From a virus, in the IMG/VR virus record IMGVR_UViG_3300002835_000043, positions 1 through 64,000 of that record: a DNA stretch of 64,000 bases, one strand, 5' to 3'. Of the stretch, positions 20,200 through 28,887 are shown piece by piece. The notes under the pieces were generated by a model that searched no databases, was not told the origin of the DNA, and saw only the letters and a program-made list of their open reading frames with translations. Both the position numbers and the translations under genes were made by a program. The first letter of the stretch is position 1. Each line of letters opens with the position of its first letter.

Positions 20200-20271
20200 G
20201 GGATGCATGTGTCGGGTGGCACAGGGTCGCTTATAACGACCTACCGCAGAGTTCGAGTCTCTGGCATCCTA
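20200..20271 (+). tRNA. tRNA-Ile (UAU)
   Basis: Acceptor GGGATGC/GCATCCT (first pair G-U), anticodon stem GGTCG/CGACC with loop CTTATAA (anticodon TAT), T arm CAGAG/CTCTG, discriminator A. A tRNA reading AUA directly through U34 is uncommon in bacteria, which normally use a CAU anticodon with lysidine. CCA not encoded. Confidence 0.92.
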
Positions 20272-20274
20272 CTT

Positions 20275-20835
20275 ATGACAGAAACGCGAAACATTATTGA
20301 TCATTATCATTATTGGAAGCACGAAGCAATTCTTGCGGACCTAGATAAGCGTAGGCATAATTTTACTGTGCTTTGCAGTAATTTGTACAATGATTTTAAT
20401 ATTGCAACGGTGATCAGAAATGCGAATGCCTTTCTTGCAAAGGAGATCATTCTATATGGAAGCAAGCAATATGATAGGCGCGGCACCGTTGGTACTCATA
20501 ATTATAATCGTTTTGTTCATTGTAGGGATGAGCAACAACTCGGATTGAAAATTGAGAACATGATTCGTCAGCACGGTACACTTCGTATCGTTGGTATTGA
20601 TAATGTTCGAAATGCTCGTCCAATTGAAGATTATACTTGGCCAACTAATGAGCATGTCCTTATGGTTTTTGGTCAAGAACAAGTTGGAATTCCACAAGAA
20701 CTTCTTGACAGGTGTGATGATATTTTGTATATTACTCAGTATGGATCTGTTAGAAGTTTGAATGTTGGTTGTGCTTCATCCGTTGCAATGTATGATTATT
20801 GTCGCAAGGTTGAAGCAGGTGTTTTGGCCCCATAG
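20275..20835 (+). CDS. SpoU (TrmH/TrmL) family RNA 2'-O-methyltransferase (186 aa)
   Basis: ATG 20275 lies just after the tRNA-Ile; the open frame extends back into it. SpoU motifs are present: N42-x5-R48-N-A (motif 1), F-G-Q-E-Q-V-G-I-P-Q-E-L-L (132-144, motif 2) and S161-L-N-V-x2-A-S-x-A-M-Y-D-Y (motif 3), forming the trefoil-knot SAM site. The enzyme should methylate a ribose 2'-OH of tRNA or rRNA. TrmL acts on position 34 of tRNA-Leu CAA and UAA, and both of these are encoded by this phage, so a TrmL-like role is plausible. Its 3' end overlaps the tRNA-Glu by ten bases. Confidence 0.88.
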   Translation: MTETRNIIDHYHYWKHEAILADLDKRRHNFTVLCSNLYNDFNIATVIRNANAFLAKEIILYGSKQYDRRGTVGTHNYNRFVHCRDEQQLGLKIENMIRQHGTLRIVGIDNVRNARPIEDYTWPTNEHVLMVFGQEQVGIPQELLDRCDDILYITQYGSVRSLNVGCASSVAMYDYCRKVEAGVLAP

Positions 20836-20914: not shown

Positions 20915-21376
20915 ATGGGATTTACATCTACATTTTTTGGTCAAGGTCAATTTCCATACACTACCTCATATGAAGGATCTACTTATGTCACACAGGCATA
21001 TACAAATCCTCCAGAATATAAATCTTCACTTTCCATGACTACACAGTTTTCAAATGCAATTAATGGGAATACGGTTGCCCTTGCAGAATATAATAGTACT
21101 TTGTTTACTGGAGAAGCAGTTGGTCTTTGGATTTATAGATTATATTTTGATGGTCAATTAGTTGGTATATATCAAATGTGTGATCAACAATTTTCATTCC
21201 CAGTGACATTTGATCGTGTTGAAGGGTTTTGTATGGGTGTGCCACTCACTCCTGCTATCCCATATCGTGGTACTCCTGAACCTGAGCCATCGCCACCGAT
21301 TCCATCACCAGCGTCTATTGCTATTTTGATTTGTTACACATTTTTTTCTCTACGAAAGAACCCTCGCAATGCATAA
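20915..21376 (+). CDS. Hypothetical protein with P-x-P / hydrophobic / basic C terminus (153 aa)
   Basis: Good ribosome spacing (TTAGGATTATAATT before ATG 20915). The body is aromatic, T/S/G-rich and strand-like, as in virion surface proteins. The end reads P-E-P-E-P-S-P-P-I-P-S-P-A-S, a hydrophobic stretch (IAILICYTFF) and L-R-K-N, which resembles a PEP-CTERM sorting signal. There is no N-terminal signal peptide, which PEP-CTERM proteins need, so surface anchoring is uncertain. It overlaps the next gene, which has a similar C terminus. Confidence 0.65.
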   Translation: MGFTSTFFGQGQFPYTTSYEGSTYVTQAYTNPPEYKSSLSMTTQFSNAINGNTVALAEYNSTLFTGEAVGLWIYRLYFDGQLVGIYQMCDQQFSFPVTFDRVEGFCMGVPLTPAIPYRGTPEPEPSPPIPSPASIAILICYTFFSLRKNPRNA

Positions 21377-21902
21377 TTCATTACTAGTCTCTACCGTGCT
21401 TACTCTTGCCGCAACGAATGTTTCACAAGCCGCGTTAGTTTCGATTTCACAAATTGTGACCAACAACACCTTGACCACTCAAACTTATGATTTTTCGGCT
21501 TGGAGTGGAATGGGTTCCTCAACGACCCCTGCCTATATGCGAGGTTCAATTAGTATTACTCTTAGTGATTTTAATCGTGATGGTGCAATGCTTTCCTCGG
21601 ACGGTCTTTACCTTGCACAAGTTAACTCGGTGTTAGTGAAAACTATGCCTAATACTCCGTTTACTCTGACTGCTCCTGCTCGCAGTGGTAATTCATATAC
21701 CAATAGTTTTGGTTGGGAATATCTTACAAGTTCACTCTCATCGTCTGATTCTATTGAATTGCGATTGAATTTCCGTTTAACTCCTGGTGATCAGGTCGCT
21801 ATCGCAGGAACTTTTGAAGTTGCTTCTGTCCCTGCACCTTCATCTTTTATGTTGATTGGATGTGCAGGAATTGCTGCACTGTTTGGAAAAAGAAATAAAT
21901 GA
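21369..21902 (+). CDS. Secreted protein with PEP-CTERM-like sorting signal (177 aa)
   Basis: Residues 1-21 form a signal peptide (LLVSTVLTLAATNVSQA). The body is a Thr/Ser-rich beta domain as in many PEP-CTERM proteins. The C terminus V-P-A-P-S-S-F-M-L-I-G-C-A-G-I-A-A-L-F-G then K-R-N-K has the P-x-P-S-S, glycine-rich hydrophobic helix and basic end of exosortase substrates. In bacteria this is cut and the protein is anchored or released. In a phage it suggests cargo made for the host envelope, or a gene taken from the host. It overlaps the methyltransferase start. Confidence 0.75.
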   Translation: MHNSLLVSTVLTLAATNVSQAALVSISQIVTNNTLTTQTYDFSAWSGMGSSTTPAYMRGSISITLSDFNRDGAMLSSDGLYLAQVNSVLVKTMPNTPFTLTAPARSGNSYTNSFGWEYLTSSLSSSDSIELRLNFRLTPGDQVAIAGTFEVASVPAPSSFMLIGCAGIAALFGKRNK

Positions 21903-22993
21903 AAGTAGGATCACTATTTGCAGGTATTGGTGGTTTTGATCTCGGTTTTGAACGAGCAGGATTTGAACTTGCTTGGTCAGTCGAAATTGATCCACATTGT
22001 AGAAAAGTTCTACAAAAGCATTTTCCAAATGCTAAAATTTATTCAGATATCAAGCAAGTAAAGGTTGAAGAACTTGAAAAGGTTGATATCATCTGTGGTG
22101 GATTTCCTTGTCAGGATTTATCGGTAGCAGGTAAGCGTAAAGGTCTTGCTGGAGAAAGGTCAGGATTATTTTATGAAGCAATGCGACTTGTACGGGGAAT
22201 CAATCCCCAGTTCGTCATACTCGAAAATGTGCCAGGATTGTTGTCGAGCAATAAAGGAAGGGATTTCGCAGTCCTCCTCGCTGAAATGGACAAAGGGTGG
22301 GATTGTCAGGAAATCGCATGGAGAGTTCTTGACAGCCAATTCTTCGGAGTGCCCCAACGACGCAAGCGCATCTTTATTGTCGCAAGTTCTCGAATCGGGG
22401 GTGCCGAGCAAGTATTGGCTCTCTCCGAAAGCATGTCAGGGGATTCTACGAAGAGCAAAGACAAGAGGAAAGAACTTACCTCCAGTATTGGAGGAAACAT
22501 TGAAGAGACAAAGTGGTGGGATGGTGGACAACTCTCAGACACCTTAACATCTTCAAGTTTATTTCGTCAACAAGCAGAACCGGATAAGCGTAGAATGTCT
22601 GCAGTATTGGAGCCTATTCCTTACGATTTATTCCAGATTACAGCACCTATCAATAAGCAAACAAGAGTACCGGGTGATCCGTGTCACACTCTTGCTGCTT
22701 CTAATGCAGTTCATGCTGCTATGGTAATGGCAGTTCGTACAGCACAAACAGGAGCAAATGGTCATGGTGTTGCAGAAGAAGTTTCTCACACATTAGATCT
22801 TGCAAATGGTCAAGCAGTTGCTTATAATCTAACAATTCGAAGATTAACACCTTTGGAATGTGAGAGACTACAGGGATTTCCTGATAATTGGACTGATGGA
22901 CAAGCAGATACTACAAGATATAAGCAACTAGGAAATGCAGTTACCGTGAATGTAATTGAATGGTTAGCAAATAATCTGAAAGGAATAATATGA
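21899..22993 (+). CDS. DNA (cytosine-5) methyltransferase (364 aa)
   Basis: All key C5-MTase motifs appear in order: F-A-G-I-G-G-F-D-L-G-F (7-17, motif I), G-G-F-P-C-Q (67-72, catalytic C71), E109-N-V (motif VI), Q-R-R-K-R-I-F (motif VIII), and G-N-A-V near residue 346 (motif X). It transfers methyl from SAM to C5 of cytosine. The target-recognition region spans about 190-300 and its specificity cannot be read. No restriction endonuclease is beside it, so it probably protects phage DNA from host restriction. ATGA overlap with the previous gene. Confidence 0.93.
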   Translation: MKVGSLFAGIGGFDLGFERAGFELAWSVEIDPHCRKVLQKHFPNAKIYSDIKQVKVEELEKVDIICGGFPCQDLSVAGKRKGLAGERSGLFYEAMRLVRGINPQFVILENVPGLLSSNKGRDFAVLLAEMDKGWDCQEIAWRVLDSQFFGVPQRRKRIFIVASSRIGGAEQVLALSESMSGDSTKSKDKRKELTSSIGGNIEETKWWDGGQLSDTLTSSSLFRQQAEPDKRRMSAVLEPIPYDLFQITAPINKQTRVPGDPCHTLAASNAVHAAMVMAVRTAQTGANGHGVAEEVSHTLDLANGQAVAYNLTIRRLTPLECERLQGFPDNWTDGQADTTRYKQLGNAVTVNVIEWLANNLKGII

Positions 22994-23921: not shown

Positions 23922-23929
23922 TATAAATA
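23922..23929 (+). promoter_or_regulatory. TATAAATA box between tRNA-Gly and tmRNA
   Basis: Exact T4 late consensus placed one base after tRNA-Gly and directly ahead of the tmRNA acceptor piece. It may give the tmRNA its own late transcription, or be part of the spacer in an AT-rich genome. Confidence 0.5.
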
Positions 23930-24195
23930 ATCTTTGATATCGTTGATCTTCAATGAAAGACAATCAGGACAGGGGTTCGATTCCCCTCGGCTCCACTTGA
24001 CGGGGCTGTACAGGTATTCGACTGGTGTTTAGTAAGGAAAAGGGAGATATTCGGGACAGGCAACGAGTCTCGTTAAAAAATAGTTGTAAACAATAATTGC
24101 TAACGAACTAGCAATGGCTGCTTGAAGCAGTGGGGAATGATTCACCCGCATCTGAACGAATCACGATTTGCAGTCAGAAATGATTGCAAATCATT
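23930..24195 (+). ncRNA. ssrA: Circularly permuted (two-piece) tmRNA
   Basis: The acceptor piece comes first: P2 strand AAAGACAATCAG (23956-23967), T arm AGGGG-TTCGATT-CCCCT (23971-23987), acceptor strand CGGCTCC (23988-23994) and discriminator A. After only six bases the coding piece begins with GGGGCTG (24002-24008), which pairs with that acceptor strand, then the conserved GGTATTCGAC and CTGGTGTTT (24022-24030), which pairs with the P2 strand. A reading frame at 24099-24125 gives A-N-E-L-A-M-A-A and TGA, like a proteolysis tag. A hairpin (24165-24192) probably ends it. tmRNA frees stalled ribosomes with SmpB. Outer ends are approximate. Confidence 0.88.
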
Positions 24196-26617: not shown

Positions 26618-26625
26618 TATAAATA
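26618..26625 (+). promoter_or_regulatory. T4-type late promoter box TATAAATA
   Basis: Exact consensus 27 bases after the previous stop. The expected start point is near 26631, where a GC-rich, foldable segment with its own terminator begins. Confidence 0.7.
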
Positions 26626-26629
26626 ATAG

Positions 26630-26755
26630 TGATCGGGCTGAGTTGGTCGTAGACAGTCCTCAAGCGAACTACGCCATTCATGCTAAAAAGGAACTTCGCT
26701 ACCTTTCGATCTTCATAGGGGAAGGGGTTTCGTGAGAAGCCCCTTCCTTTTTTTG
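26630..26755 (+). ncRNA. Candidate late-expressed small RNA with pseudoknot
   Basis: About 125 bases between a late promoter box and a strong terminator, much richer in GC than either side, with no convincing gene (open frames lack ATG and ribosome site). GATCG (26631-26635) pairs with CGATC (26707-26711); inside, CGTAG (26648-26652) pairs with CTACG (26669-26673), and AGCGAA (26663-26668), in the loop of that stem, pairs with TTCGCT (26695-26700), giving an H-type pseudoknot. It may be a trans-acting RNA or a riboswitch-like element. No known family recognised. Confidence 0.55.
26720..26754 (+). terminator. Very strong terminator
   Basis: A 12-bp stem, GGAAGGGGTTTC (26720-26731) with GAAGCCCCTTCC (26736-26747), GNRA-type loop GTGA, then seven T. 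Confidence 0.93.
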
Positions 26756-26797
26756 GGTACATTATATATACTAGGTAATCTCTAATAGGAGCAAAAA

Positions 26798-27301
26798 ATG
26801 GACACAAATAAGGAATGGTTGGATCAATTAATGGCAACATATACAAATATGAACAATCCAGTTTCTGAACCAGTAGCAGAAACCAAAGAAGAAGTTCTCA
26901 ATGAAGAATGCACAGAGTGCAATGAATCAGCAGAACCACAAGTAGAACAAACAGAAGAAGTTGAAGAATTAGAGGAAGAAACCTCAAATGAAGACTTTAT
27001 GGTATCTCTATTAGAAGATGTACAAGCAGCAGTTGGTGAAGATCTAACAGAAGAAGAGATCGAAGCAATTCTCGAAACCGTATCTCTAGTTGTTGAGGGT
27101 ATGGTCAAGAAGATGAAGAATGTAACAGAAGCACACATAGGAAAAAGTGGATTCCCTACTCAAGACGAACGCACATTTGCAGATAGAATAAAACTAGGTG
27201 CAAAACTTGATGCAAAAGGTGAAACTAAAGGTGCAGAAAAACGAGCATGGCACGCACTTGACAAATGGGCACAGAGAAAAGCAGAAAAGAAGAAGTATTG
27301 A
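26798..27301 (+). CDS. Acidic putative scaffold / head-core protein (167 aa)
   Basis: ATG 26798 after AATAGGAGCAAAAA. The first 100 residues are very acidic (E-rich, for example VEQTEEVEELEEE) and include the helical module F-M-V-S-L-L-E-D-V; L-x-E triplets are frequent. The last 60 residues turn basic. Acidic scaffold plus basic end is typical of T4-like prohead core or internal proteins. No firm family match. Confidence 0.65.
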   Translation: MDTNKEWLDQLMATYTNMNNPVSEPVAETKEEVLNEECTECNESAEPQVEQTEEVEELEEETSNEDFMVSLLEDVQAAVGEDLTEEEIEAILETVSLVVEGMVKKMKNVTEAHIGKSGFPTQDERTFADRIKLGAKLDAKGETKGAEKRAWHALDKWAQRKAEKKKY

Positions 27302-28236: not shown

Positions 28237-28887
28237 GTGAAAAAATTTAATCATGTACCTGTTGAACTAAAAAATAAACTAACAACTAAAGAAATAGACG
28301 GAAAAAGATACTATGTTACAGAAGATGGTAATTCTTATCCGTCTGTAACTACGGTTACAGGTTGGGAGAAGAGAGAGTTCTTTGCTGAATGGCGAAGAAA
28401 GAATCCAGAAGAATCAAAAAGAGTTCTTCGCCGTGGAAATAAGTTCCACTCAATTATAGAAGCATATTTAAATAATGAAACAATTAATCCTGATGATTAT
28501 TCACCGGGTGAATATTATTTGTTTTCACAATTAAAGTCAGAACTGAATAAGATAGACAACATTAGAGCACTCGAAACCGCACTACAATCCTCTCTGTTGG
28601 GTTTGGCAGGTAGAGTTGACTGTATTGCAGAGTTCGCTGGCAACTTGTCTATAATCGATTTTAAGACCTGTTCTGCTGAAAAGGGCAAGGACAGTATCAA
28701 GGAATATTTTATGCAAGCAACTGCATATGCAATTATGTTCCAAGAACAAACTGGTATACCTGTAAAAAACATTGTTATCCTTATGAGTTGTGAAGATGGT
28801 TCTATAACTGTATTTGAAGAAAATCCTTTGAATTATACAAAACTACTTAAAGAAACCATCGAATCATTCATGATAAATAATTCATGA
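28237..28887 (+). CDS. PD-(D/E)XK nuclease, RecB-like exonuclease (216 aa)
   Basis: The motifs of the RecB/MGME1-type nuclease appear in order: G67-x3-H71, E113, G-R-V-D128, I-I-D141-F-K143 and Q160-x3-Y164. The core reads L-A-G-R-V-D-C-I-A-E-F then S-I-I-D-F-K-T. Such phage enzymes degrade or process DNA ends, single-strand preferring in the MGME1 branch. Start GTG/ATG at 28237 with GAAGTAAGT upstream. It stands between head-internal genes and the glycan cluster. Confidence 0.85.
   Translation: MKKFNHVPVELKNKLTTKEIDGKRYYVTEDGNSYPSVTTVTGWEKREFFAEWRRKNPEESKRVLRRGNKFHSIIEAYLNNETINPDDYSPGEYYLFSQLKSELNKIDNIRALETALQSSLLGLAGRVDCIAEFAGNLSIIDFKTCSAEKGKDSIKEYFMQATAYAIMFQEQTGIPVKNIVILMSCEDGSITVFEENPLNYTKLLKETIESFMINNS

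Follow-up and report, generated by a model that had tools for sequence, protein, structure and literature searches.

We analyzed a 64-kb window, positions 1 to 64,000 of a 118,301-base virus fragment (IMG/VR record IMGVR_UViG_3300002835_000043). At the locus of interest, a T4-late-type promoter, TATAAATA (26618–26625, plus strand), ends 5 nt ahead of the first G (26631) of a small RNA; a T4 late promoter would be expected at this distance from the start of its RNA. We place the transcript at 26631–26753 on the plus strand, its start set by the promoter spacing and its end by a T run. The conserved part covers ~85 nt (26631–26718), and profile R1 scored 95.3 bits at 26631–26753, its sole match in the window. 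An intrinsic terminator lies at 26717–26750 (plus strand). Judged from the sequence, the promoter box, the conserved RNA and the strong terminator hold as one transcription unit. The original prediction had described such a unit, complete and without a clear gene, and was confirmed in these parts; the terminator, given there as 12 bp, has 15 pairs and a T run.

As a word alone, TATAAATA is not rarer than chance in the AT-rich window (10 found versus 8.3 expected). A motif of this class recurs 4–9 nt from the RNA in 17 of the 18 family rows, L021 being the row without it, while a terminator, differing in sequence, is present in all 18. A gp55-like relative of the T4 late sigma factor is encoded in 6 of the 7 family records examined, including that of the window, where it lies outside the window itself (G000:C1:106798-107331). 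Both parts of a T4-type late transcription unit were therefore found, namely the promoter-type element at a fixed distance and the gp55-type sigma factor, and late expression from the RNA's own promoter, as originally proposed, is probable. The gp55-like frames of G294, G295 and G296 are each interrupted by one TGA, and that of G296 also by a TAG; recoding, frameshifts or errors are possible explanations.

The record of the window also encodes T4-type baseplate, tail and gp32 proteins and a T4-type portal. In its baseplate wedge protein, the record comes closest to pelagiphages and Melnitz methylophages, at 33–35% identity. Sixteen Rfam tRNA hits at 16.5–25.3 kb of the window include a permuted (two-piece) tmRNA at 23936–24125 (plus strand, 87.6 bits), just ahead of which stands another TATAAATA (23922–23929). 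Permuted tmRNAs in aquatic phages have already been published (PMC9004378). By reading, an ORF at 20203–20835 (plus strand), which overlaps a tRNA-Ile gene, resembles a SpoU/TrmH-type RNA methyltransferase, and that at 21369–21902 (plus strand) a secreted protein with a PEP-CTERM-like end; the latter adjoins a DNA methyltransferase gene (21899–22993, plus strand). An exonuclease-like gene (phrog_298) is found near the RNA both in the window (28237–28887) and in L213, and L024 appears, by reading, to have a similar gene together with glycosyltransferase-like genes.

Fold and classification of the RNA

The family includes long forms (GATCGGGCTGAGTTGG...) and short forms (GACGGGC...), which have a common, almost invariant core, GCGAACTACGC...TC.TGC...GGAACTTCGCTACCTTT. 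The genes that flank the RNA differ between family groups. All complementary words named in the original prediction are present in the window: GATCG (26631–26635) with CGATC (26707–26711), CGTAG (26648–26652) with CTACG (26669–26673), and AGCGAA (26663–26668) with TTCGCT (26695–26700). In the predicted fold, the GATCG/CGATC helix, P1, closes a three-way junction (26631–26711, plus strand) with two hairpin loops able to kiss through GCGAA (26664–26668, plus strand) and UUCGC (26695–26699). The GCGAA word is not antisense to 23S rRNA, never varies among nine long forms and, in 29 of the 39 distinct RNAs, precedes the core by no more than 45 nt. The RNA with its terminator has a fold energy of −47.7 kcal/mol (z −4.27). 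Fold energy alone shows little, because this advantage over shuffles all but vanishes in seven relatives folded without their terminators (z +0.06 to −1.60).

Standard pairs make up 97% of the 270 pair cells in the nine long-form sequences. Covariation in related phages, suggested earlier as a check, did not appear: across these nine rows, no pair is altered on both sides, and the five kissing pairs never vary. The H-type pseudoknot of the original prediction was likewise abandoned, as the pairing partner sits in the second hairpin loop of the predicted fold and neither helix covaries.

Other classes were also considered. The Rfam search that had been proposed returned no family at gathering score in Rfam 15, with the best sub-threshold hits scoring 25.1 bits (cut-off 55) and 20.3 bits (cut-off 80.4), and the relaxed threshold gave chance hits only. 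By reading, no conserved peptide is encoded, since the RNA's internal ATG frame, of 12 codons, does not stay intact in relatives (shifted by one base in L006; ATGCTTTAA in L008). A riboswitch or attenuator of the next gene (26798–27301) was rejected: the lowest-energy fold separates P1 from the terminator stem, and no switching stem was found. That gene also seems to have its own promoter, given that TATAAATA stands directly behind the terminator in several relatives and that TATATATA, its probable separate promoter, occupies 26763–26770 (plus strand) in the window. Box C/D guide RNAs are defined by RUGAUGA near the 5′ end and CUGA near the 3′ end; by eye, no RTGATGA was seen, and CTGA, absent from short forms, is confined in long ones to the vicinity of the 5′ end. 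The small RNA of the window is probably a standalone, late-expressed phage RNA that is not a gene and lies outside Rfam.

Complementarity to domain IV of 23S rRNA

The original prediction missed the dominant property of the RNA, an antisense complementarity to domain IV of 23S rRNA that accounts for most of its conserved letters. The RNA runs colinear with, and antisense to, about positions 1913–2011 in E. coli numbering, set here by placing the word GGUAGCGAA at 1929. On the plus strand of the window, the first segment, GCTGAGTTGGT (26637–26647), corresponds to 23S ~2001–2011, fits alphaproteobacterial 23S best and is specific to the long form; positions 2002–2011 are paired in 90/90 cells of nine long forms versus 0/60 in short forms. 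GACAG (26652–26656) aligns to ~1990–1994, with 60/63 cells of 1989–1995 complementary in long forms versus 19/42 in short ones. The third segment, TACGCCATTCATGC (26670–26683; 23S 1964–1977), covers, on the Rfam LSU structure, the unpaired 1965–1971 and the 3′ strand of H67. Complementarity here extends to 62/63 long-form and 42/42 short-form cells at 1965–1971 and to 54/63 and 35/42 at 1972–1978.

A short linker (26684–26687, plus strand) then replaces the H71 hairpin. The gap from TGC to TTCGC is 26 nt in the rRNA antisense versus 6–13 nt in the 39 distinct RNAs, where the search pattern allowed 4–22. Beyond the linker, AAGGAACTTCGCTACCTT (26688–26705, plus strand) aligns to 23S 1927–1944 with one conserved A1938:C mismatch, and 1929–1942 is complementary in 117/126 long-form and 78/84 short-form cells. 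By cell counts, the last segment, GATCTTCATAG (26708–26718, plus strand), corresponds to 1914–1924 on the 3′ side of H69; 97 of the 117 long-form cells at 1912–1924 are complementary. Complementarity is thus high in the unpaired 23S junctions (93–100%) and low over both the H71 hairpin (59/198 long, 42/132 short; 30–32%) and the H64 3′ strand (49/90 and 35/60; 54–58%). The RNA is complementary, in order, to the 23S strands on either side of H71, and pairing is predicted to flank and omit this hairpin; promoter and terminator are oriented for the antisense strand. Conserved departures from the complement, A1938:C in 31 of 39 distinct RNAs and positions 1925–1926 in 15 of 15, together with GCGAA show constraint other than pairing.

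The antisense signal was assessed by several scoring schemes. Relaxed BLAST with two relatives gave weak matches to 23S rRNA genes (E 7–10), one of them antisense to an annotated 23S gene. Under strict scoring, the best antisense match in the whole 23S fell within 1913–2010 for all 15 RNAs, with scores of 28–41 where shuffles averaged close to 20.6. The sense strand stayed at shuffle level (16–24); L027 and L007 fall inside the range of 300 shuffles. Gap-tolerant scoring of eight RNAs against three rRNAs (Salmonella, a SAR11 bacterium and a Rickettsiales member) yielded z values of 5.1–14.3, none of the 24 values being reached in 200 shuffles. Across the 64-kb window, the RNA was the one outlier in antisense score (71 versus 49 for the next best). 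A search of the window for other rRNA antisense or a second copy gave the one R1 match only, and its remaining blastn matches to rRNA-operon loci were tRNA genes or weak scattered matches.

Predicted net binding energies, after the cost of opening both folds, ranged from −19.8 to −56.5 kcal/mol (seven RNAs, four targets) against shuffle means of about −5 to −9 kcal/mol, values that ignore that mature 23S is folded and protein-bound there. A first duplex test was weak (z about −1.7 to −7, with L028 within shuffles), owing to the stability that unconstrained duplexes of long shuffled RNAs also have. Taken as a statement about sequence, pairing of the RNA with 23S rRNA is well supported.

Distribution of the family and host hints

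Gapped pattern scans of 2.9 million viral contigs returned 10 and 27 stretches. Five of the 27 (L020, L023, L026, L030 and L031) were judged chance by eye, as were L033–L038, 15 of the 28 from another scan and L055–L060; these were usually GC-rich or coding DNA with no terminator. From the antisense model we derived an H71-skipping pattern (TACGCYNNTCRTGC, 4–22 bases, TTCGCTACC), which excludes true antisense 23S because rRNA has 26 bases at this point. It matched 58 stretches, 38 of them previously unseen, comprising known members and new groups in different surroundings. A few chance hits are to be expected among them as well, since earlier scans of like stringency gave 5–6 each; L220 was judged chance by eye. 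The last scan added L251/L252/L256, L254/L258 and L255, with L250, L253 and L257 set aside by eye as chance. The total is 66 viral contigs (57 of the 58, L028, L032 and L045, and 6 of the 9 from the last scan), several of which may be one virus population.

Removal of duplicates and L220 before counting left 39 distinct RNAs; L229, without a promoter, was kept. A terminator (dG below −15) accompanies all 39, versus 26 of 780 random same-strand positions, and a T4-late-type promoter motif lies at most 85 nt away in 29, versus 50 of 780. GAA[CT] precedes TTCGC in 37 of the 39. This word was not demanded by the pattern and is found in 22 of the 25 distinct new RNAs (L220 included). In 14 of the same 25, the stretch after the core fits the 3′ side of H69 (p<0.05); only 3 reach this level for the stretch before the core against 1978–2014.

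A second kind of member places the antisense core 11–25 nt behind a stop codon (L214, L218, L222, L226, L235 and L251), with a terminator and no late promoter motif (L251 by reading). The gene ahead of the core in L226 (1824–3224), L235 (6341–7702) and L251 (5105–6355), on the minus strand in each, resembles a phage ATP-dependent protease. The 3′ untranslated region of these protease-like genes carries the 23S-antisense element, constituting a second, promoterless architecture. L214, L218, L222, L226 and L235 read TTTCGTGC, which fits 23S with A1971 (GCACGAAAGG), a form seen in the panel's Firmicute, cyanobacterium and Deinococcus. As a host hint, this fit is suggestive only.

The best fit of the long forms is to alphaproteobacterial 23S with U1967, of the Rickettsiales type (mean 75.8 in a panel of 24 rRNAs, from which Aliarcobacter was left out for want of the anchor word), closely followed by two Planctomycetes (73.2 and 70.9) and then by SAR11 (67.6–69.1) and Gammaproteobacteria (53.8–62.7). 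The U1967 that the long forms match is, among the matches listed, typical of SAR11. This apparent alphaproteobacterial fit is in keeping with the pelagiphage-like relatives of the phage. The fit of short forms does not single out a host group, and a cyanophage origin was rejected, with the psbA family in 0 of 37 records, many being fragments. For uncultured phages, 23S complementarity might also help to point to the host.

Searches elsewhere delimit the family. In BLAST, five family queries brought up nothing among 50,697 phage records beyond chance or rRNA hits, and a 601-base query had no hits. Of six cultured T4-like relatives, two of them SAR11 phages, none contained a match to the R1 model, and three pieces of HTVC008M reached an antisense score of 51 at best, versus 71 in the window. 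The exact long-form pattern was absent from bacterial genome contigs, and the H71-skipping pattern from all 385 alphaproteobacterial genomes.

A proposed action on the host ribosome

We propose, with a probability of roughly 0.55, that this late small RNA base-pairs in trans with host 23S rRNA and clamps free or immature 50S subunits. The free RNA would fold on itself through P1 and the GCGAA/UUCGC contact, covering part of its own seed. On its target, the antisense segments would pair with the junction strands flanking H71 (1927–1942 and 1964–1977) and with the 3′ side of H69; the long form would pair additionally with 1990–1994 and 2001–2011, and H71 would be left out. The 23S region concerned belongs to the intersubunit face of the 50S subunit, folds late and is exposed in free or immature 50S, which makes these the likeliest partners. 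Domain IV would then be held and the normal intersubunit surface blocked, so that host ribosome activity might be lowered or redirected late in infection. In principle, pairing could block, chaperone, protect or mark for decay; we infer that the RNA is transcribed, pairs in the cell with one such ribosomal state and acts as an inhibitor. More tentatively, and at slightly worse than even odds, the RNA may represent a widespread class of viral rRNA-clamp RNAs in at least two phage kinds, T4-like ones with a late promoter and others behind a stop codon, which pair with the 23S strands flanking H71, control the large subunit and are tuned to the 23S of their host group.

Other readings share parts of this evidence. 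The RNA could be a helper that pairs with 23S, much as U3-type snoRNAs do, to chaperone assembly or act as a placeholder in late 50S maturation and so keep up the supply of ribosomes in long infections. Multi-segment pairing to junction strands with hairpin H71 free is folding-chaperone behavior, and the internal GCGAA/UUCGC contact would permit release. However, a helper would call for new 50S subunits late in infection, and the very stable predicted pairing favors trapping over release; we regard this reading as unlikely. Descent from an antisense rDNA fragment that now works by structure, or via an mRNA or protein, would accommodate the constraint on the non-complementary GCGAA and P1. Such a relic would decay evenly, yet many different RNAs, among them the second kind behind stop codons, keep the likeness exactly in the 23S junctions and lose it over H71, which leaves this reading decidedly improbable.

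Modification and toxin cleavage are both known for the H69–H71 region, and the RNA might mark 23S for cleavage or modification, or shield H69–H71 from host rRNA-cutting toxins in abortive infection. The conserved A1938:C mismatch adjoins U1939, in favor of this reading, but box C/D features were not seen by reading, and we give this explanation little credence. We give even less, close to none, to a late regulatory RNA defined by its H-type pseudoknot, with the target unspecified. The promoter, the terminator and the complementary words all agree with it; the loop–loop geometry and the lack of two-sided pair changes do not, and 23S complementarity is the stronger account of the conserved letters. 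The clamp remains our preferred reading, and it is directly testable, as target, orientation and compensatory mutations are all predicted. If true, some uncultured aquatic phages act on host ribosomes via antisense RNA, a new layer of phage–host conflict.

OOP and sar are trans-acting antisense RNAs of phages, and to our knowledge no phage RNA targets the ribosome by base pairing. By title and abstract start, we found no open-access paper on a phage RNA antisense to 23S rRNA, nor on any small RNA of phages or bacteria that targets ribosomal RNA. Like OOP, sar and c4, the RNA described here is a short phage-encoded antisense RNA; c4, which is counted among phage antisense RNAs and sRNAs, also keeps its complementary stretches in loops, and the main text of the review that covers it contains no occurrence of rRNA or 23S (PMC12197685). 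Known phage antisense RNAs act on mRNAs or sRNAs, whereas the match here is to 23S rRNA. In eukaryotes and archaea, U3-type and guide snoRNAs pair with rRNA at several separated segments, as this RNA is predicted to do; unlike them, it is viral, belongs to phages of bacteria, and has no C/D boxes that we could see and no known partner proteins. Aquatic T4-like phages of the same virus group carry further parts that act on host ribosomes, namely ribosomal protein bS21, encoded for example in HTVC008M, and permuted tmRNA (PMC9004378). Those are homologues of host parts, whereas this RNA is the complement of one. Being folded, conserved and antisense to the very center of the host 23S, it suggests that these uncultured T4-like viruses may also act on ribosomes by base pairing.
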